Shown: one piece after another, positions 35,577 to 46,061 of the stretch
Numbering within the stretch: position 1 is the first letter of the stretch
Layout: each line of letters begins with the position of its first letter
NCBI GenBank assembly: GCA_014728215.1
Contig: WJLZ01000133.1
Location: forward strand, 77,129-141,128
Direction: 5' to 3'
From: Chitinivibrionales bacterium
GTDB taxonomy: Bacteria; Fibrobacterota; Chitinivibrionia; Chitinivibrionales; WJKA01
Length of the DNA: 64,000 nt
Notes under the pieces: generated by a model
Databases searched by the model: none
Seen by the model: only the letters and a program-made list of their open reading frames with translations
What the model was told of the DNA's origin: nothing
Translations under genes and position numbers: made by a program

Positions 35577-38500
35577 TTACCGTGATTTTGGCCTGCCTTT
35601 TTTCAGATTTTCTCTGATTTTTCTTTTGATACGGACCCCTTTAAGAGGCTTATCTCCCACTGCCTTCTTTGTTGATCTGCGGCTCTTTTTCTTTTTTGCT
35701 TGCGGGGCATCTTTTTTTTCTTTATTGGGTGGGACCGGCTGTTGTGGCCGAATTCCCGTCGCATTATCTTCTTCGGTCATTGTACTTTTAATTTCAACTA
35801 ACCGATTCTGAATTCTTTCATTATCGGGATCCCGCTCCAGGAGTCTGGAGTATATCTGAACGGCAAGCCCAGCCTGGCCCTGTTGATAGTAAATATCAGC
35901 AAGGGTTGGCGTGAGTACATGATCGGGAATTGTTGGCGGTCCTTCATTTTCAGGCTCCGGCTCTTCCGGGGGAAACTCTTCTGCCGATATCTTTATTGCC
36001 TCCTGCATTTCATCGGTGGTTTCCTCAGCCGGATATCGATGTGATTCTCCGGATTTACTTTCCGGTTCTTCGAGTGGAGCGACTTCATCCATGGTCTCGG
36101 TCTCATTCGAAGGGACCGTATCCCGGTTCTTGCCGGATACCGGGGGTTCGTGAGATGAAGATACCTCCTCCAGTTCCCTTTCCCCGCTATCATCGCTGAA
36201 TTCTGATATTTCCTCTTCAATCTCAACGTTACCAATCTCTTCGGGAAGGGATTGTTCGGTGGTTTGAGGACCGGCGTTTTCTCCTTCAATGGTATAAAAA
36301 TCTCCACTCACCTGATCTCCCGAATCGTCCTCATCATCTGGAATAGCCTCGGCCAGTTCCCCGGAATCCAGAGACTCCTCCGGGAAAAGCTCACCAAGAC
36401 GTTTTTCAATATCACTGCCCTCGATTTCCGGTGAAGGCTCTTCAATGATTGTATCTTCAACCTCGTCTGCTTGACGATTTTGAGCGGCTTCCAGATCTTC
36501 GCTCTTCAAGGCAATCGTTTCTTTAGTGCTCTCATCACTATCGGCGTTCTCATCCTGTGGAATATCAAACTCGGAAATCGAACTGTCGAGTTCAACCTGA
36601 TCCACATCCTTGAGCATTGAGCTATCCTCGGCGGGATTTTCGGCATTTTCACCCGAAATATTATAGAATCCCCCGCCGACTTCTGTTTCCTCTTCTGCAT
36701 CACTTTCATCATCCGGAATGATATCTTCTGCTGTCTGACCCCCGGCATCATCCGGGAACATCTCCTCGAGACGCTGACTGACATCGTCACCGGCGATGTC
36801 GGTCGGCAGGTCTACTGCGATTTCGTTAAGGGATTCATCCAGGGACTCTCCGATAGTGCTGAAATCTTCCGGTATGTGTTCCTCCGAGTCGCTGCCTTCA
36901 GTACGGGGTTGTTCCGAATCCTCAGTCTGGGGAGCCGTAGTATTGTCGGCGGTCTCCTCGGCAAACAGTTCAGTATCACTGTCCACTGTTTCATCGGTAA
37001 CCGGTGGAGTATCCGATACTTGTTCTTCGGTTGGGCCGGCGGTGAGCATCTCACCAGGGCTGTCGTTGTCGACGGCGGTCTTTTCTTCAGAATCACTTCC
37101 CGAAAACATTTCATCGACCCGTTTGGTAAGATCTTCGCCGGTTACAGCAGCCTGTTCATCCGACACGTTGAGATCTTCGGTAGCCAGACCCTCCTGATTT
37201 TCCCGGTGGGCTTTTTCGGAGATAGCTTCATCAAAGGCGCTGCGGTCAATCGCTATCGTTTGTGCATCTTCAATAGAATCGGGGAGATAGTTTTCGGTTG
37301 TTATGGCCTTGTCAATCGATTCTTCTGCTGATGATGTATCGTAATTGGGTGTTTGAGTTTCAGGCTCCCGGGTATCCTCTTCAATGAGAGTGCTTTCTCC
37401 GGGAACTGATTCGTTTCCGTTTTCGGCAGGAGCGTTATCGTCGGCAGATGGTTCTTCGGTAGTGTCTTCAAACATCTCTTCGATTCGTGAAGTGACATCA
37501 TCACCGCTGATATCCGAGTCTGCAGAAGAGACCGAAGCATCTTCGATCTTTGTATTTTCTTCTCCTTCGGGTTCGGCTGTTTGCATGGAGGTGTCACTCA
37601 AACGCTTTTCGGGTGCATTTGTCTCCTGGGCGATGTTGTCTTCAGCGTTGTCTTCGAACATCTCATTGATTCGCGAGGTAACATCATCACCACTGATATC
37701 CGTTTCACCACCCGATGGTTCGTCGGGGGGCGGGTGACCGTATTCCTGTTCAACGGTTCCGGTTGAATCAGATTCATAGGGCGTGTCGGTTTCTTTAGGT
37801 GGCTCGGAACCTTCACCGTGCTGATCGGTCTCGGGAAGATCAACGGTGGTGGTATCGGAAAGTTGTGATTTGTTAAGCGGCTTTTCATCAAACAATTCAT
37901 CAATACGTGAAGTGACATCGTCACCCTTGATATCGGTATCGGCCCCGGTTTGTTCGGTTTCTGCCGCAGGTTGGGTGGATGTATCACGATCGGATTCCCG
38001 GCCGGTTTCGATCGCGGGTTCTTCCGGCTCCGGGGTGGAGTAAATTCCTGATTCGGGTTCCTGCGCGGCTTGTTCCGGCTTACCGGTGTCGGCTTGAGCA
38101 GGTGTACCGGTTGATTCTGCAGCCGGAGAGAGTTGATCATCCTCCCCTTGAGGGGGATATTTCTGCGTATCGGTATCGGCAGGGCTGGCGGACGGCACAT
38201 CATTTTGATTGGTTTCCGCAGTCTCTTCCTCGAACATTTCTTCGATGCGCGAGGTAATATCCTCGCCACTGATATCCTCGGCAGGCGGCATATTCATCGT
38301 TTCGGGCTGGGATGGTTCAGGTGCCGCTGGTTGTGATGGTGTCTGTTCCAGCGAAGGCGTCTCCGATTCGTCGACAACCGGACCGGTCTCCTCCCCGAAC
38401 ATGGTTTCAACCCGTGATGCTATATCATCCGATGACGGGATATTGCCGAGATTTTCGGAGATCGGGGCGTCGGTCAATTCGGGGGTAAATGATTTTTCCT

Positions 38501-39350
38501 GTTGTTCCGATTCGCCGGATGGTCCTTCAATACTTTCTTCAATGATGGGGCTCTGGTCGGAATCTTCGATTTCGACAGCCGGCGCTTCACCGTTTTCATT
38601 GAACACCATGTCCATGCGATCGGCAATATCTGATCCGCTGATTTCATTATCGATTTCAGCAGTGAGATCGTCAACAGTCTCTTCAACTTCGATCTCACCC
38701 GTATCTGCAGGCGGTACCAGCTGTTCGACATCATCGGACGGTTCTGTAACGGATTGCTCGTATGACTGTTCTTCCTGCGGTTCAAAGAGTGGTTCTGCGG
38801 TTTCAGCGCCACTTTCAGCATGGTGCTCGGATACCTCCCCGGCATGCCCGGCACCTTCAGCAGAGGGGGGGCTCACCGGCGTTTCCGGCTGGTCGGACGT
38901 TTGAGGTTCAATACCGATGATGGAAAAAATATCGGTTTTTCCGGAACCTGTGTAATTGGCCGAAAGCTTTGCCAGCGAATCGTTTTCCAGATCCATTTTC
39001 AGGAGATATCCATACAGGTCGCCGGCTTTTTCATCCATACCCTGTTTTGAGAAAATGTCCGCCAGCATTTTTATGGCGACCATATTTCTTCTGTCAAGAC
39101 GGCACACGTGAGTGAATTCCTGAATTGCTTCCTGCAGATTTTCCTGCTCAAGATAACACCGGCCAAGGATGATCCGTCCGGTGGCATACCAGGGATGCTT
39201 CTCAAGGCCGTCGACACTCAACTGGATTGCCTGAGGAATGTTTCCCTGTTTGCGGTAGGAATCCGCAAGGCGGGAAAATGCGAGGGACTGAGGATTTTCA
39301 TTCAGCCGTTGTTCAAGCTGCTGGACTTCGGTATCTTTTTGTGATGACAT
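35577..39350 (-). CDS. 1257-residue acidic TPR protein with nine short helical motif repeats
   Basis: N-terminal TPR array (about residues 15-130) followed by ~1000 residues of very acidic, Ser/Thr/Pro-rich, probably disordered sequence. It ends with a single TPR (about 1141-1175: LTPTLADIYYQQGQAGLAVQ) and a Lys/Arg-rich basic tail (about 1210-1257). The acidic part carries nine copies of a 14-residue motif, consensus I-x-G-[DSE]-D-[IV]-x-x-R-[IVLM]-x-E-M-F, at 237, 305, 360, 474, 552, 614, 736, 852 and 977. It also has two copies of FYxIxGENA (895, 1018). FimV of Pseudomonas type IV pili is also large, acidic and ends in a TPR, so a pilus/polarity hub role is possible given pilT downstream. 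No homology to FimV is claimed. Confidence 0.8.
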   Translation of the reverse strand: MSSQKDTEVQQLEQRLNENPQSLAFSRLADSYRKQGNIPQAIQLSVDGLEKHPWYATGRIILGRCYLEQENLQEAIQEFTHVCRLDRRNMVAIKMLADIFSKQGMDEKAGDLYGYLLKMDLENDSLAKLSANYTGSGKTDIFSIIGIEPQTSDQPETPVSPPSAEGAGHAGEVSEHHAESGAETAEPLFEPQEEQSYEQSVTEPSDDVEQLVPPADTGEIEVEETVDDLTAEIDNEISGSDIADRMDMVFNENGEAPAVEIEDSDQSPIIEESIEGPSGESEQQEKSFTPELTDAPISENLGNIPSSDDIASRVETMFGEETGPVVDESETPSLEQTPSQPAAPEPSQPETMNMPPAEDISGEDITSRIEEMFEEETAETNQNDVPSASPADTDTQKYPPQGEDDQLSPAAESTGTPAQADTGKPEQAAQEPESGIYSTPEPEEPAIETGRESDRDTSTQPAAETEQTGADTDIKGDDVTSRIDELFDEKPLNKSQLSDTTTVDLPETDQHGEGSEPPKETDTPYESDSTGTVEQEYGHPPPDEPSGGETDISGDDVTSRINEMFEDNAEDNIAQETNAPEKRLSDTSMQTAEPEGEENTKIEDASVSSADSDISGDDVTSRIEEMFEDTTEEPSADDNAPAENGNESVPGESTLIEEDTREPETQTPNYDTSSAEESIDKAITTENYLPDSIEDAQTIAIDRSAFDEAISEKAHRENQEGLATEDLNVSDEQAAVTGEDLTKRVDEMFSGSDSEEKTAVDNDSPGEMLTAGPTEEQVSDTPPVTDETVDSDTELFAEETADNTTAPQTEDSEQPRTEGSDSEEHIPEDFSTIGESLDESLNEIAVDLPTDIAGDDVSQRLEEMFPDDAGGQTAEDIIPDDESDAEEETEVGGGFYNISGENAENPAEDSSMLKDVDQVELDSSISEFDIPQDENADSDESTKETIALKSEDLEAAQNRQADEVEDTIIEEPSPEIEGSDIEKRLGELFPEESLDSGELAEAIPDDEDDSGDQVSGDFYTIEGENAGPQTTEQSLPEEIGNVEIEEEISEFSDDSGERELEEVSSSHEPPVSGKNRDTVPSNETETMDEVAPLEEPESKSGESHRYPAEETTDEMQEAIKISAEEFPPEEPEPENEGPPTIPDHVLTPTLADIYYQQGQAGLAVQIYSRLLERDPDNERIQNRLVEIKSTMTEEDNATGIRPQQPVPPNKEKKDAPQAKKKKSRRSTKKAVGDKPLKGVRIKRKIRENLKKGRPKSR
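36384..38642 (-). repeat. Nine-copy GxDhxxRhxEMF protein motif array in the acidic TPR gene
   Basis: The repeats encode residues 237-250, 305-318, 360-373, 474-487, 552-565, 614-627, 736-749, 852-865 and 977-989. The spacing is irregular (roughly 50-125 residues) and the linkers share no sequence. Each unit would form a short amphipathic helix with an invariant Arg and Phe, the usual form of a docking motif. Confidence 0.85.
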
Positions 39351-40154: not shown

Positions 40155-40181
40155 TAAAGTATTTATCTGTGGTGCCGATAA
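40155..40181 (+). promoter_or_regulatory. Sigma-28 promoter P1 of flagellin
   Basis: TAAAGTAT at 40155-40162 and GCCGATAA at 40174-40181 with 11 nt between. This is 7/8 and 8/8 of the sigma-28 (FliA) consensus, at standard spacing, 163 nt before the flagellin ATG. Confidence 0.85.
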
Positions 40182-40343: not shown

Positions 40344-41486
40344 ATGAGAATTAATCACAACATATCGTCCATGGTTGGACAGGGCTCCCTGCTCAGGGTG
40401 CACCGGGATATGAACAAGTCTCTGGAACGGCTTTCCACAGGGTTACGGATCAATTCAGCAGCAGATGACGCCGCCGGACTCGGTGTATCGGAAAACCTGA
40501 GAACCCAGGTACGCGGTCTCGGGCAGGCATCGAAGAACGCTCAGGATGCCATTGCCATGTTGAACATCGCCGACGGCGCGTTGCAGGAGCAGACAGAAAT
40601 ACTTCAACGGATGCGTGAGCTGGTGATCCAGGCACGAAACGACACCTATACCGAGACGGAACGGCTCTATATGGGGCAGGAATTCAGTCAATTGATGGAT
40701 GAAATCGACCGGATCGCCGCGACCACCAATTACAACGGCATGCAGATTTTTGCCACCCCCGAGAAAAGCGGTGACAATCCCACTTACGCGGGGAACGATG
40801 CTTCTGGTACTCCTCATAAGCTGGGAGACGCCCGTACTGCCTGGGACAACAATGATGATTCGGTTTTTGGAGCGGACGACAATTCCAGTGCCCACCATTT
40901 TAACATGATGATCGGTGCCAATTACACCGCCGAGGATGCAGCGGCATTTAATTCCGGAACTGATGCCCAGTCTTATGATAAGAACGCGGCGAACATGATC
41001 ACCATTCAGTTCGGACAGATGGATACTAATGTACTTTTAAGTACAATGGCGTCTTTTGCTGTGGATGCTGAGGACATAGTTGAAACCGACGGCAATGCTT
41101 TTGGCTGGGATGCTACCAATGATGTCTATGATGCTACTATGGCAGCAGCCTATGGTGGTGATGATGTGCAGAGTAAGTTCGAGTATCTGCTCGAGGTCCT
41201 TGATGGCGACTCGAATTTTTCAGGGACCGTCGGGGATGTGACCGGTCTTGAGCGGGTCAATAAGATGCGGGCTCAGATCGGCGCCATGACCAATCGCCTC
41301 GAACATGCCTTGACAAATATGGTGAATTCGCAGACCAACCAGCAGAGTGCCGAAAGTAAGATCCGGGACGCAGATTTTGCTTCAGAAAGCACGCAGTTTA
41401 CCAGAAACCAGATCCTGAGCAGCTCGGCAACCGCCATGCTTGCCCAGTCCAATATGGTCCCTCAGGCAGTGCTACAGCTTTTATAA
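40344..41486 (+). CDS. fliC: Flagellin
   Basis: 380-residue flagellin with the conserved D0/D1 ends. The N-terminus MRINHNISSM, LERLSTGLRINSAADDAAGLG and the C-terminus ATAMLAQSNMVPQAVLQLL are classic. The central ~150 residues are short, variable and acidic (many Asp), giving a small surface domain. It is exported by the flagellar type III system, so it has no signal peptide. Tandem sigma-28 promoters and a CsrA-type hairpin precede it, and a terminator follows at 41512. The gene appears monocistronic. The only other flagellar gene in the window is the rod-like gene at 23322. Confidence 0.95.
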   Translation: MRINHNISSMVGQGSLLRVHRDMNKSLERLSTGLRINSAADDAAGLGVSENLRTQVRGLGQASKNAQDAIAMLNIADGALQEQTEILQRMRELVIQARNDTYTETERLYMGQEFSQLMDEIDRIAATTNYNGMQIFATPEKSGDNPTYAGNDASGTPHKLGDARTAWDNNDDSVFGADDNSSAHHFNMMIGANYTAEDAAAFNSGTDAQSYDKNAANMITIQFGQMDTNVLLSTMASFAVDAEDIVETDGNAFGWDATNDVYDATMAAAYGGDDVQSKFEYLLEVLDGDSNFSGTVGDVTGLERVNKMRAQIGAMTNRLEHALTNMVNSQTNQQSAESKIRDADFASESTQFTRNQILSSSATAMLAQSNMVPQAVLQLL

Positions 41487-41511: not shown

Positions 41512-41540
41512 AAGGGAAGTCTTTGGCTTCCCTTTTTTTG
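41512..41540 (+). terminator. Intrinsic terminator after flagellin
   Basis: AAGGGAAG/CTTCCCTT stem followed by TTTTTTT, 26 nt after the stop codon. Confidence 0.88.
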
Positions 41541-41607: not shown

Positions 41608-42444
41608 ATGCTTGTATCTATCGCCGGCCTTAAATTCGCTCTGACCGGCAGTTGTGTCGGAGCAGAGATTATCGATGAGGCCACAGCCGAGTATTTAGGA
41701 CCCTTTGCTTGTACCGGGGATGGTGACTCTGTGGATTTTACTCTCCGCGTAATGGATATTCATGCAATCAAAATGCCTGCAAATCTCCAAAGACGGCGGT
41801 ATGAAATCCGATATGCTGAATCGGAAGGGCGGTTCTTTTTCGAAAATATCCATGCCAGAAGTGTAATCGATCCTTCAGAAAAAGTGATGAAGGCTTCATT
41901 TTTCAATCCCCGTGATCCTCAACGAGTAAGACTTTTACTTGCCCAGTTGCGCCTGCTCGTTTCACTATTGACACTCGAAAATCATGGCCTGCCGATTCAT
42001 GGCGCGGCTCTCTACCGGAACAACCGGTGTGCCATCTTTTCGGGACCGTCCGGAACAGGGAAATCCACCATTGCCAATCTGTTATATCCCCAGTGGGGAA
42101 TATTGAATGATGAATGTGTTGTTCTTCGCCCGGATTCGGACAAATATCATGCCTGGTCGACTCCTTTTGCAAACATGAACACCCGTTCCCGCTGCTCGGT
42201 AAGAAAATTTCCTGTCAATAAGCTATTTTTTATTAAACAGGGTACATCGCTTGAAACCACGGCCATGAATTTTACACAGAAATATTTTTCCCTGCTTCAA
42301 AGCGTCTATACCCTTCCAACAACCCGGGAGCATGGCGCTCTGGCGATGGAGACCGCCGAATCGGTCTGCAGATCCATTCCCATGGAAACACTCGTTTTCC
42401 CCCGCCACAAAGAAACCCTTTTAACGATTGATCGATTATTATAG
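41608..42444 (+). CDS. HprK-like ATP-binding kinase of the peptide operon
   Basis: 278-residue protein with an HPr-kinase-like nucleotide-binding fold. The P-loop is GPSGTGKS (146-153), preceded by IHGAAL (about 128) and followed by ILNDECVVL, as in HprK-related kinases of PqqD-linked clusters. The usual HprK partner HPr is not present. In paeninodin-type lasso peptide clusters, related kinases phosphorylate the precursor peptide. Here the next genes are PqqD-like, radical SAM and a peptidase, so a peptide substrate is likely. Start ATG 41608 has only a weak Shine-Dalgarno. It may match 'HprK-related kinase A', which should be checked. Confidence 0.7.
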   Translation: MLVSIAGLKFALTGSCVGAEIIDEATAEYLGPFACTGDGDSVDFTLRVMDIHAIKMPANLQRRRYEIRYAESEGRFFFENIHARSVIDPSEKVMKASFFNPRDPQRVRLLLAQLRLLVSLLTLENHGLPIHGAALYRNNRCAIFSGPSGTGKSTIANLLYPQWGILNDECVVLRPDSDKYHAWSTPFANMNTRSRCSVRKFPVNKLFFIKQGTSLETTAMNFTQKYFSLLQSVYTLPTTREHGALAMETAESVCRSIPMETLVFPRHKETLLTIDRLL

Positions 42445-42453
42445 GATACTATT

Positions 42454-42717
42454 ATGAACTACACCTTGAAACCGAACCTTTCAATAAAAAAAGTTGCCGA
42501 TGAACTCTTTGTGCTCAACCGGGAAACATCGGAGATCTGCAGTTTCAACAGCACGGGAGCATTCATCTTCGAATGTCTGCAACAGGGAAAGCCATTCGAA
42601 GACATTGCCGATCAATTAACCGAAAACTTCGAGGTTTCGATTGAAACCGCCCACAAAGATCTGGATGGATTTTTGCAACTTTGTGCCGACAATAAATTGC
42701 TTGAAACCACCGAATAA
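42454..42717 (+). CDS. PqqD-like peptide chaperone
   Basis: 87-residue PqqD-family protein (RiPP recognition element type). The pattern LKPNLSIKKVADELFVLN, then SEICSFNSTGAFIFECL and FEDIADQLTENFEVS fits the winged PqqD fold. PqqD-like proteins bind leader peptides and present them to a radical SAM enzyme. It lies 9 nt after the kinase gene and 10 nt before the radical SAM gene, so the three are almost surely one transcript. The partner leader is probably the peptide at 44225. Confidence 0.86.
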   Translation: MNYTLKPNLSIKKVADELFVLNRETSEICSFNSTGAFIFECLQQGKPFEDIADQLTENFEVSIETAHKDLDGFLQLCADNKLLETTE

Positions 42718-42727
42718 ATGGCAGCGT

Positions 42728-43780
42728 ATGCCCCCGAAAAACTTAGACGCCAAATTTGAAGCTCTGGGCTTACAGGGATATCCCAAAACAGCCACCGTAG
42801 AGGTGACCAACCGGTGCAATGCCCGGTGCGGTATCTGCTTTATCGATCACACAGCAGAGCACCAGGACCTTTCAACAGAAAAAATGTATTTCATTCTGGA
42901 TAAACTCGCAGCCAACGGTGTCCTCAATGTGCTGATCAGCGGTGGCGAGCCCTTTCTCCGCAGCGATATTCTCCAAATACTGGAGCACGCAATCGGGAAG
43001 GATTTTTTTGGTCTTACCCTGTATACCAACGGGATAGTGCTTAATGATGACCATATACAATTTTTGATTGCCAACCGGCAGTGGTTTACTGAGATTAAAA
43101 TGTCGGCCTTTTCTCATGATCCAAAGCTCAATGATGCCTGTTTTAATGTTCCCGGCGCCACAGAAAAGATAGTGCATAATGCGGAGCGTCTCGCCGGTGG
43201 GGGACTGAACGTGCGGTTTTCGGTTGTGGCGCTGGATTGCAATGTCGATACACTTCAGGCAACCGAACAATTCTACGCACAGCGGGGATTCTCGATTCAA
43301 GCCTCCCCTTTTCTTATCTGTACCCCCGGAAAGAACGGGACAAAGGACCCCCGGAATTTAAAAAAATTTATGCCCCGCTATTTCAACCATTACTCGAGGG
43401 AGAATATCGAAGCCTTCAAAAAGGTTATGAACAAACGGCTGGCCAATCCCGGTGACCATATCAGGCTTTGTCAGGGAAGTGTCATATCGATCATGGTTGG
43501 TCCCCGGGGTGATATAACTCCTTGCGTATCATTCCGGTCTATGAAAATCGGGTCTATTTTTGACCAACGGCCACTGAATGAAATCCTTCAGTCTTCACCA
43601 GCCTATAAACGTCTCAAGAACATGAAAAAGACCGATTTTGAACCCTGCAGGAGTTGCAGGTTTGTGGGATTCTGTGATGTGTGTCCCGGAAGAATCCATA
43701 CCGCAACCGGAGAACTGGTGTATGCCGAACCGCAGACCTGTGAACATGCCCGGGCCCTCTATTCACTTATGCGGTCGTAG
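42728..43780 (+). CDS. Radical SAM/SPASM peptide-modifying enzyme
   Basis: 350 residues from ATG 42728; the longer frame overlaps the PqqD gene and has no RBS. The radical SAM cluster motif CNARCGIC gives C30xxxC34xxC37. GGEPFLRSDI is the SAM-binding GGE block. The C-terminal third is a SPASM domain with Cys at LCQGSV, TPCVSF, PCRSCRFVGFCDVCPG and TCEHAR, enough for one or two auxiliary 4Fe-4S clusters. SPASM maturases act on RiPP peptides (sactipeptides, ranthipeptides, PqqE, mycofactocin). The neighbouring PqqD protein and Cys-rich peptide support peptide thioether or other crosslink formation, but the bond type cannot be told. Confidence 0.88.
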   Translation: MPPKNLDAKFEALGLQGYPKTATVEVTNRCNARCGICFIDHTAEHQDLSTEKMYFILDKLAANGVLNVLISGGEPFLRSDILQILEHAIGKDFFGLTLYTNGIVLNDDHIQFLIANRQWFTEIKMSAFSHDPKLNDACFNVPGATEKIVHNAERLAGGGLNVRFSVVALDCNVDTLQATEQFYAQRGFSIQASPFLICTPGKNGTKDPRNLKKFMPRYFNHYSRENIEAFKKVMNKRLANPGDHIRLCQGSVISIMVGPRGDITPCVSFRSMKIGSIFDQRPLNEILQSSPAYKRLKNMKKTDFEPCRSCRFVGFCDVCPGRIHTATGELVYAEPQTCEHARALYSLMRS

Positions 43781-43790
43781 CAGGAGAACT

Positions 43791-44225
43791 ATGGAGCATC
43801 TGGCAAAGGCACTCAACTGTTTTTTCTTTGACAAGGGAAACAAGGAGTTTGTTGTTCGGGGCGGATCAATGGCGCCGCTTTTACGTGACAGACAAAAGAT
43901 AATAGTTGCCCCGCTCTCATCTCCTCTGAAACATGGGTGGTGTTATGTTTTCCGGGCAGGGGAAAAATTAATTATTCACCGGCTTGTCAGGGTGAAAAAT
44001 GACAGGGCGCTGTTTGTTGGAGACCATTCTCCAAAGGTGCATGATATTCCTGTCTCTGATATTATCGGCCGGCCACTAATAAAGGAAAAATCGATGACCC
44101 GGTTGATAATTCATGCCATTAATTGTATCTTTTTACAGAGGCTCGGTTTTATTCCGAAGTCGTTCGTTGTCCGTACAAAGCTCATTCAAATAACCGCAGC
44201 ATTCTTTAGCAAAGGCAAAGCATAA
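43791..44225 (+). CDS. S24/S26-type signal-peptidase-like protein
   Basis: 144 residues from ATG 43791, preceded by AGGAGA; a longer frame into the upstream gene has no RBS. GGSMAPLL holds the Ser26-Met motif of S24/S26 serine peptidases. LIIHRLVRV has His63 where E. coli-type signal peptidases have Lys, as in ER/SipW-type enzymes. There is no N-terminal anchor; a hydrophobic stretch (LIIHAINCIFLQ) lies near residue 105-118. In a RiPP operon this would fit removal of the leader peptide. The catalytic His/Lys substitution and lack of anchor suggest a cytoplasmic or peripheral processing peptidase. It overlaps the peptide gene by TAATG. Confidence 0.75.
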   Translation: MEHLAKALNCFFFDKGNKEFVVRGGSMAPLLRDRQKIIVAPLSSPLKHGWCYVFRAGEKLIIHRLVRVKNDRALFVGDHSPKVHDIPVSDIIGRPLIKEKSMTRLIIHAINCIFLQRLGFIPKSFVVRTKLIQITAAFFSKGKA

Positions 44226-44401
44226 TGGCCAGGAAACGCAAACCCTACGAAAAACCGGAAATAATAAAAGCGGTCATCTCCTCTGAGACCTTGAGCGCCC
44301 AATGCTCAGACCCTGTTGCCGTCGCCCCGGGATTTGTCGGATTTACAACTCCACTGTGTAATGGTTGCAGCAGCTGCAAAGAGGGTGTCGCCTCTGGATA
44401 G
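44225..44401 (+). CDS. Candidate 58-residue RiPP precursor peptide
   Basis: Small ORF found by eye, starting in a TAATG overlap with the peptidase gene; AAAGGC lies ~8 nt upstream. It reads MARKRKPYEKPEIIKAVISS, then ETLSAQCSDPVAVAPGFV and ends TPLCNGCSSCKEGVASG. The basic N-terminus with a YEKPEI element resembles leaders that bind RiPP recognition elements. The C-terminal 15-18 residues hold Cys45, Cys48 and Cys51 (CX2CX2C), with another Cys at 27. It has no signal peptide and no membrane segment. No homologue can be named. Context (PqqD, radical SAM/SPASM, peptidase, HprK-like kinase) makes a modified peptide the best call. Confidence 0.72.
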   Translation: MARKRKPYEKPEIIKAVISSETLSAQCSDPVAVAPGFVGFTTPLCNGCSSCKEGVASG

Positions 44402-44406
44402 GCATC

Positions 44407-45225
44407 TCACGATTTGCTCAATTTATACCTCATTAATTGCCATGGGTTACGTGAGAAGGGTAGTTCGATAAAGATCTTTCGCAGCAGGGCTGCTTGTTTG
44501 CCGTAGATAATGAATTCGGGGAGCATGAGCAGCAGATCGGGATATCTAAACCTTCGTGGCCAGGTCAGCGTGGTCGATTCTTTTCTTTTACATAACTCAA
44601 GCAGATAATAGATCCAGGATGCAATGCCGGTTTGGCGGGCGTAGTCGAAAAACCGCCGACGATTGAATGCGGGTTGAGACAGGATAAGTTTCATCTCCTC
44701 AAAAAATGATTGCTGCGGAATCTGGGCGCCGTGTACCAGTTGATGACACATCATGATTAGAAGCATATCCTCTAAACAGGGAAGCACCCGCTTAGATCGG
44801 GTGTGAGTACCCCTTTTGAATAGCGTGCTGGTGGGAAGATAAAACCGTTCGGGACGGTTGAGCATGGCATGCATTTCGATAACGACGTTAGTGCTGCCGG
44901 AAACATAATAGAATGCCTTTGCAAAGGGCCAGGATTCCTTTTCACGTGCTACCGTTGTACCGCTCGAATCGAAATAGTCCGATGCCCTGGTGAAACGGTC
45001 GGGCAAAACAAGAATATCGATATCATTCATGGTTCGTGAGGAAATTTTTTCCGCCAGTCCGGAACAGATAAGTGACGCCCCTTTTATGGGCATGTACTGC
45101 AGATTCATGGCGGAAAAATCCTGATCTAGTTGGTCGAGTATTTCCCCATAGAGCACCTGGCGCAGTTTCCAGGTCTGTTCGGGAGTATATTTTTCCTCTT
45201 TATTTTTGCCAGGTAAAGGACTCAT
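44407..45225 (-). CDS. Nucleotidyltransferase-like protein (NTP_transf_5 type)
   Basis: 272-residue protein of the uncharacterised nucleotidyltransferase family that recurs near RiPP and exopolysaccharide genes. MPIKGASLICSGLAEK and RTMNDIDILVLPD carry the family's glycine loop and the metal-binding D-x-D. The C-terminal part is helical (LLIMMCHQLVHGAQIPQ). It faces the RiPP operon with only 5 nt between stop codons. In paeninodin-like clusters a protein of this family sits beside the HprK-like kinase, so convergent location may reflect the same tailoring module. It overlaps the upstream glycosyltransferase gene by 26 nt. Confidence 0.78.
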   Translation of the reverse strand: MSPLPGKNKEEKYTPEQTWKLRQVLYGEILDQLDQDFSAMNLQYMPIKGASLICSGLAEKISSRTMNDIDILVLPDRFTRASDYFDSSGTTVAREKESWPFAKAFYYVSGSTNVVIEMHAMLNRPERFYLPTSTLFKRGTHTRSKRVLPCLEDMLLIMMCHQLVHGAQIPQQSFFEEMKLILSQPAFNRRRFFDYARQTGIASWIYYLLELCKRKESTTLTWPRRFRYPDLLLMLPEFIIYGKQAALLRKIFIELPFSRNPWQLMRYKLSKS

Positions 45226-45979
45226 AGAACGCTTTCATCAGATGAAATACCGTTTGCTTTATCAGCACCCTACTTTGTGTGGGGTTGTCGAAATGGCGGT
45301 TAATTATTCTGGATAAATCGTACCATTGTCTGAATCGCTTCGCACAACTGCTCTGGCCGGGGTAGGTGCGGTAATTGTAAACAACTTTATCCAGAAAGAA
45401 CACCTGGCCGCAGGAAAATATTTCAAGAGCCAGATATTTATCGATCGACCGTAAGAGTGTTTCATCCAATGGGGCAATCCGGTTCATACATACTTTCCTG
45501 ACCATAAGGGTCGGTCCGATAATGGGCGCCCGAAAGTTACATACGATATCGTTTTTCCTGAAAACAGGGTAAGAACTGCGGGTGCGATACGGTTTGCCCT
45601 CTTTGTTAATATAGTCGGCATTGCCGTATACCGCCATCGCATCAGGGGTGGCATGAAGAAATTCCGCTCTGTCCCGAAGACTATTTTCCGGTAAGGTATC
45701 ATCGGCATCGACGATAGTAATGAAATCGCCGGAAGAGAGCGCAATGCCACGGTTGAGAGCGGATACTTTTCCACCGTGGGGCTGATCGTGAGCAATAAGA
45801 GAGGGGTGCATTGCAGCGGTGTTTTTTATAACCGACTCAGTGGTATCGGTCGAGCCGTCATTAATGACTATTACTTCAAAATCGGACCAGGATTGAGCAA
45901 GCAGGCTCTGCAGGGTTTCCGGCAGGGTTGCCGCCATATTATAAATCGGAACGATTACGCTGACACGGGGTGTTTTCAT
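45200..45979 (-). CDS. Family 2 glycosyltransferase
   Basis: 259 residues from ATG 45979 (MKTPRVSVIVPIYNMAATLP), which fits the start of GT2 proteins; the 27 extra residues of the longer frame do not. The nucleotide-sugar site is VINDGSTD and the metal-binding motif is VDADDTLPEN. The C-terminal region (YRTYPGQSSCAKRFRQW) is typical of GT2 enzymes acting on glycans or peptides. Acceptor unknown: flagellin (3.7 kb away) and the RiPP product are both conceivable. It is co-transcribed with the nucleotidyltransferase gene. Confidence 0.85.
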   Translation of the reverse strand: MKTPRVSVIVPIYNMAATLPETLQSLLAQSWSDFEVIVINDGSTDTTESVIKNTAAMHPSLIAHDQPHGGKVSALNRGIALSSGDFITIVDADDTLPENSLRDRAEFLHATPDAMAVYGNADYINKEGKPYRTRSSYPVFRKNDIVCNFRAPIIGPTLMVRKVCMNRIAPLDETLLRSIDKYLALEIFSCGQVFFLDKVVYNYRTYPGQSSCAKRFRQWYDLSRIINRHFDNPTQSRVLIKQTVFHLMKAFYESFTWQK

Positions 45980-46061
45980 GGAACCGGTAAAACTGAATAA
46001 ATAATGCAAAGATGCTGGAGATTGTTGTCCCGGTATAAATATACTCTGTGTGATAAACAAT

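Follow-up and report, generated by a model that had tools for sequence, protein, structure and literature searches.

The window, meaning the whole stretch of 64,000 nucleotides analysed here, carries five tightly spaced plus-strand genes at 41608-44401, with gaps of 9, 10 and 10 nt followed by one TAATG overlap. The original prediction had described this packing together with a convergent NTP_transf_5 gene, and we reproduced its coordinates, its gaps of 9-10 nt, the overlap and the convergent gene (Pfam 3e-21). The five genes are real, but the conserved unit also includes a flagellin gene that had been overlooked. The start of the radical SAM gene was set at 42728 because the listed TTG start at 42641 lies too far upstream. 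The features of the locus are as follows.

40155-40181, plus strand: sigma-28 (FliA)-type promoter 5' of the flagellin gene, exact match to TAAA-N15-GCCGATAA
40237-40263, plus strand: second sigma-28-type promoter-like site, 1 mismatch
40344-41486, plus strand: cassette-clade flagellin, 380 aa, Pfam Flagellin_N/C, with a distinctive middle domain spanning roughly residues 136-305
41512-41534, plus strand: intrinsic terminator in the gap between flagellin and HprK; similar hairpins and T-runs were seen by eye in the corresponding gaps of L016, L018 and L024
41608-42444, plus strand: HprK-like kinase with the Walker A sequence GPSGTGKST and the conserved residues H131 and D168-E169
42454-42717, plus strand: PqqD-type RiPP recognition element (RRE), Pfam PqqD E 9e-15, preceded by a 9-nt gap
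42728-43780, plus strand: radical SAM/SPASM peptide maturase, Pfam Radical_SAM 6e-16 and SPASM 3e-9, preceded by a 10-nt gap
43791-44225, plus strand: S24/S26 signal-peptidase-like protease, Pfam Peptidase_S24 3e-6, preceded by a 10-nt gap
44225-44401, plus strand: precursor of 58 aa with YEKPEI in its leader, an Ala at Tyr+17 and a core rich in Cys; TAATG overlap
44407-45225, minus strand: NTP_transf_5 nucleotidyltransferase, convergent, Pfam NTP_transf_5 3e-21
45200-46060, minus strand: accessory GT2 glycosyltransferase, adjoining NTP_transf_5 in G000, G001 and G002 only

Elsewhere in the window (35577-39350, minus strand) lies a gene for a large TPR protein in which a motif resembling DISGDDVTSRIEEMFEDxTEE recurs as many degenerate copies.

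Enzymes of the cassette

Profile searches with all five proteins returned Pfam matches for the PqqD, radical SAM/SPASM and S24 proteins; neither the kinase nor the peptide had one, the kinase search giving no Pfam match over the cut-off. The closest NCBIfam models to the kinase are TIGR04249 ScmC (5e-12) and TIGR04352 HprK_rel_A (5e-8), both far below their curated cut-offs, and every homologue retains the Walker A motif. We infer the kinase and nucleotidyltransferase activities by analogy with distant relatives. The best NCBIfam match of the PqqD protein is lasso_PqqD_Strm (2e-8, below cut-off). A second PqqD-type domain in G000 (L026 7104-7523; C77:7326-7490) lies beside ABC-transporter-like genes and has no radical SAM neighbour by profiles.

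The CxxxCxxC motif and SPASM cysteines of the radical SAM enzyme are conserved among homologues (alignment A1), and its closest solved structure by profile search is SkfB (7e-27). Protease residues S26, H63 and D78 are invariant in 11 homologues and correspond to S29, H68 and D93, the catalytic residues of LppS (PMC13381572). A structural model of the protease (pLDDT 88) matched SpsB best in Foldseek, followed by LexA and SEC11. Membrane anchoring of the protease was considered and dropped, as a strongly hydrophobic stretch was present in L017 and L025 only.

Conservation in Fibrobacterota

Searching 61 relatives recovered the radical SAM enzyme at E < 1e-30 in 12 genomes, all of the same taxonomic order, and a profile search of 168 Fibrobacterota genomes returned the identical 12. 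The gene order HprK-PqqD-radical SAM-S24 is kept in all of them as far as contigs extend; in G031, one contig ends with HprK and another begins with PqqD. Since 12 genomes of one taxonomic order share this arrangement, the gene set reflects more than chance, and the HprK-PqqD-radical SAM-peptide neighbourhood to which the original prediction had looked is conserved across related genomes of the order. The NTP_transf_5 gene is convergent and immediately 3' in eight genomes; among the exceptions it lies about 4.6 kb off in G003 and is non-adjacent in G039. The intervening stretch in G003 (L018 3871-8303) holds polysaccharide-ABC-exporter-like and sulfotransferase-like genes and a second NTP5-like protein. 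Clusters for LPP, a RiPP type of Bacillota, have likewise been reported near capsule loci (PMC13381572).

The precursor peptide

A small ORF of 53-80 aa follows the S24 gene in every readable locus (11 of 12 genomes); the twelfth, G007, is unreadable here since its contig stops partway through the radical SAM gene. All 11 precursors carry a YxxPx[ILV] leader, with Tyr and Pro invariant in a gapless alignment on Tyr, and in 10 of the 11 an Ala falls exactly at Tyr+17 (single-column binomial chance 2e-10). Mean identity drops from 55% around the Tyr to 7% over the last nine residues, marking a hypervariable core. Cysteine accounts for 11.4% of residues in the distal part, compared with a background of 1.6% in large ORFs. 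The 58-aa precursor is present as one copy in its genome. The longest precursor, that of G014 (L008 1-520), has 80 aa; ten Cys follow its leader, a number well above that of related precursors.

Scanning 1466 ORFs of 40-110 aa from 14 loci for the leader pattern yielded 12 hits, seven of them precursors and five others; the scan missed the remaining precursors, either through the choice of start codon or because it did not cover their loci. The 17-residue spacing from Tyr to Ala offers a leader rule that can aid precursor finding.

That PqqD plus a SPASM enzyme denotes a radical SAM RiPP system, as originally proposed, is borne out by these data. Because the neighbourhood is conserved and a lasso/LPP-type YxxP leader occurs in 11 of 11 readable loci, we confidently regard the locus as a genuine and conserved RiPP cassette, LPP-like and of the radical SAM kind.

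Relation to known systems

Outside Fibrobacterota, 24 loci among the 80 matches listed combine radical SAM, PqqD and HprK genes; S24 is also present in 14 of them and NTP5 in six. A flagellin profile found no flagellin near any of the 24 within the fetched stretches. Several of these loci have YxxP peptides, and the Ala is again at +17 in L075, L092, L100, L132, L139 and L146. Judged by sequence, such radical SAM, HprK and PqqD loci occur in many phyla, with SynChlorMet as a named type, so the suggestion that the window holds a variant of known HprK-related/PqqD sets was sound. Three clostridial loci (L128, L139 and L146) have HprK with radical SAM, and L128 and L139 have PqqD too; their precursors are larger, with YxKPEI, a near-terminal GxCYH or KICYH and an FxS C-terminus.

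SynChlorMet (TIGR04248-TIGR04251) supplies the best NCBIfam matches of the window kinase and radical SAM enzyme (ScmC and ScmE) and a weak match of the PqqD protein (ScmD). All three fall far below the family cut-offs, at 45.7 against 125 bits for ScmC, 13.6 against 100 for ScmD and 106 against 400 for ScmE, whereas a control locus, L076, passes for ScmC, ScmE and ScmF; no flagellin occurs in L076. On these scores we rejected SynChlorMet membership. The two systems also differ in that SynChlorMet has two radical SAM enzymes and the window one, with no second radical SAM gene.

The original prediction had drawn a parallel with paeninodin from the kinase and NTP_transf_5. Paeninodin/pseudomycoidin-type lasso systems share with the window an HPr-kinase homologue, a nucleotidyltransferase, a PqqD-like B1 protein and a [Y/W]xxP leader (PMC8498205). 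However, lasso systems rely on a macrolactam cyclase and a B2 protease, of which neither was seen near the cassette, and the cassette has a radical SAM enzyme. Inspection of ORFs between 35.5 and 49.6 kb of the window found no gene for either, as the original prediction had stated, and a lasso peptide was rejected. Sactipeptide and ranthipeptide maturases such as SkfB (PDB 6efn) appear similar in pairing a radical SAM/SPASM enzyme with a Cys-containing substrate. Unlike in SkfB-type maturases, the RRE of the window is a separate protein, and the chemistry of the window enzyme is predicted from sequence.

The closest overall resemblance is to LPP (Popov et al. 2026), which comprises a kinase (LppK), an RRE (LppB), a signal-peptidase-like protease (LppS), an NTP transferase (LppN) and an MsbA-like exporter (PMC13381572). 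LppK phosphorylates Ser3, and cleavage by LppS requires LppB (PMC13381572). Common to both systems are an HprK-like kinase (matching TIGR04352/TIGR04249 below cut-off in the window, with Walker A conserved), a discrete PqqD-type RRE (Pfam 9e-15), an archaeal/SipW-type signal peptidase with Ser/His/Asp, an NTP transferase (judged in the window by Pfam NTP_transf_5, not against LppN) and a precursor with a YxxPx leader and a hypervariable C-terminus. The LPP leader reads YxxPxVLxHQxIxFET, extended to YxxPxVLxHQxIxFETxxS (PMC13381572). The window leader is without most of the VLxHQxIxFET part; HQ is absent from the 11 precursors and ET is present in G000 and G001 only.

The features that set the window apart from LPP are the radical SAM/SPASM enzyme, the Cys-rich cores, the dedicated flagellin and the Fibrobacterota host. 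By ORF inspection, no MsbA-like transporter was present in the window cassette or recognised beside the other loci; apparent polysaccharide ABC genes lie nearby in G003 and G006. The system had been put forward as possibly undescribed. This is only partly right: its set of HprK, RRE, protease, NTP transferase and YxxP peptide was published in 2026 as LPP (PMC13381572), from which the window differs by an added radical SAM enzyme and the absent exporter, and radical SAM versions occur in many phyla. The dedicated flagellin, its most unusual trait, had gone unremarked. The kinase/RRE/signal-peptidase type of RiPP is thereby extended to radical SAM chemistry and many phyla.

A flagellin linked to the cassette

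The flagellin gene lies directly upstream of the enzymes in 10 of the 12 genomes. Its product, at about 380-410 aa, is longer than the majority of the other flagellins retrieved from the same genomes (about 270-300 aa). Some genomes of the order (G005, G011 and G038; L027, L030 and L028) have flagellins of about 640 aa. The middle domain of the cassette flagellin is conserved (37% mean identity) and had no relatives in Pfam or PDB profile searches; the structural model (pLDDT 72) matched ordinary flagellins. In a D0/D1 tree, where other genomes are represented only by flagellins fetched as loci, all 13 cassette-type flagellins form one clade with 0.98 support.

In all 12 genomes checked, a sigma-28-type site with at most two mismatches precedes the cassette flagellin, compared with 2.9% of random 300-bp stretches. 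A search of the gap between flagellin and HprK found no such site before HprK. Because an intrinsic terminator (41512-41534) lies in this gap, flagellin and HprK appear to be separate transcription units, and we rejected their transcription as one.

The middle-domain profile matched 13 of 168 Fibrobacterota genomes. Twelve are those that carry the peptide system; the other is G029, where the contig breaks off within the flagellin gene. Flagellin and peptide system are linked in 10 genomes; in G006 and G014 they lie on different contigs as non-neighbours. The enzyme contig of G014 is just 3.3 kb long, yet the downstream neighbour of its flagellin is unrelated. In G025 (L186) the flanking genes rfaE and HTH96 stand side by side with the block missing; similarly, only a PEBP-like gene separates them in G019 (L183). 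Co-occurrence gave a hypergeometric p of 2e-9, which overstates the case because genomes are treated as independent and shared ancestry is ignored. Mantel tests of flagellin distances, uncorrected for the species tree, were significant against radical SAM (rho 0.48, p 0.004), HprK (p 0.006) and NTP5 (p 0.023) and showed no correlation with S24 (p 0.48). We conclude with confidence that the genetic association of the cassette with one flagellin clade is real.

Proposed pathway and its alternatives

We propose, with a probability of about 0.72, that the window encodes a RiPP pathway similar in kind to LPP and SynChlorMet, has a single radical SAM enzyme for it, and joins it genetically to a dedicated flagellin. 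Gene content and order, the conserved leader and Ala, and the co-occurrence with flagellin are observed; the chemical steps are inferred by analogy with relatives, as is what the flagellin link is for. The PqqD domain would bind the YxxPx[IV] leader and the radical SAM/SPASM enzyme would modify the Cys-rich core. Thioether cross-links of the sactionine or ranthipeptide type are the likeliest product because SkfB is the closest profile match among solved structures and the core is rich in Cys. The HprK-like kinase may place a phosphate on a hydroxyl residue of the core, to which NTP_transf_5 might add a nucleotide or sugar. In paeninodin, the kinase phosphorylates a C-terminal Ser, and in pseudomycoidin a nucleotidyltransferase puts one or two hexoses on a phosphate (reviewed in PMC8498205). 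Presented with the RRE-bound leader, the Ser-His-Asp protease would then cut beside the Ala at Tyr+17. Type I signal peptidases follow a -3/-1 rule. The cut may fall after this Ala because the pairing of Ala at +17 and a small or aliphatic side chain at +15 is reminiscent of that rule. LPP is cut one step earlier, before an Ala (PMC13381572), and cleavage on either side appears possible in the window peptide. The product would be used with the special sigma-28-expressed flagellin, probably at the cell surface.

An intracellular product like PQQ or mycofactocin, either a cofactor or a signalling peptide, would account for PqqD beside a SPASM enzyme and for a cassette without an exporter gene. 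Cofactor precursors are expected to be without hypervariable cores, however, whereas these fall to 7% identity over the last nine residues; no linked dehydrogenase was seen either, and we consider such a product improbable. The tight co-inheritance of flagellin and enzymes would also fit if the radical SAM enzyme or kinase modified the flagellin itself, with the peptide as a chaperone or regulator. Yet none of the 13 cassette-type flagellins contains Cys, and 12 are without YxxP (G031 is the sole exception), so they are unlikely substrates of RRE-guided enzymes and were rejected as direct ones. Taken with the terminator before HprK, these sequence features indicate no direct reaction between enzymes and flagellin. 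The leaders of the peptides are moreover of the RRE type, and comparable enzyme sets elsewhere come with such peptides and without flagellin, which makes flagellin modification very improbable.

For the RiPP pathway proposed above, co-inheritance with its own flagellin suggests a plausible flagellum-connected role for the modified peptide. One specific version, in which the peptide is displayed on or binds filaments of the cassette flagellin by way of its conserved middle domain, or leaves the cell via the flagellar channel, so that the flagellum carries a RiPP, is a speculative and rather unlikely form of that role. Our search of the literature on flagellin linked with RiPPs and radical SAM enzymes, and on SynChlorMet, turned up no publication reporting such a link. 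No biological role is known for LPP or phosphorylated lasso peptides (PMC13381572), and an LPP relative co-inherited with one flagellin provides a specific, testable clue to their function.

The main rival to a functional tie is vertical descent of one linked block: the RiPP system would be real and the flagellin a mere neighbour, the two being ancestral in the order and lost as one segment. The position of the block between rfaE and HTH96, linkage in 10 of 12 genomes, the flagellin's own sigma-28 promoter and terminator, and distant cassettes without flagellin all fit this explanation. But G006 and G014 retain both parts despite their being unlinked, and in G004 and G007 flagellin and enzymes remain together in another genomic context. 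We therefore find mere neighbourhood somewhat unlikely and favour a functional tie, short of proof, because two genomes, though only two, keep both parts unlinked and zero informative genomes have one but not the other.
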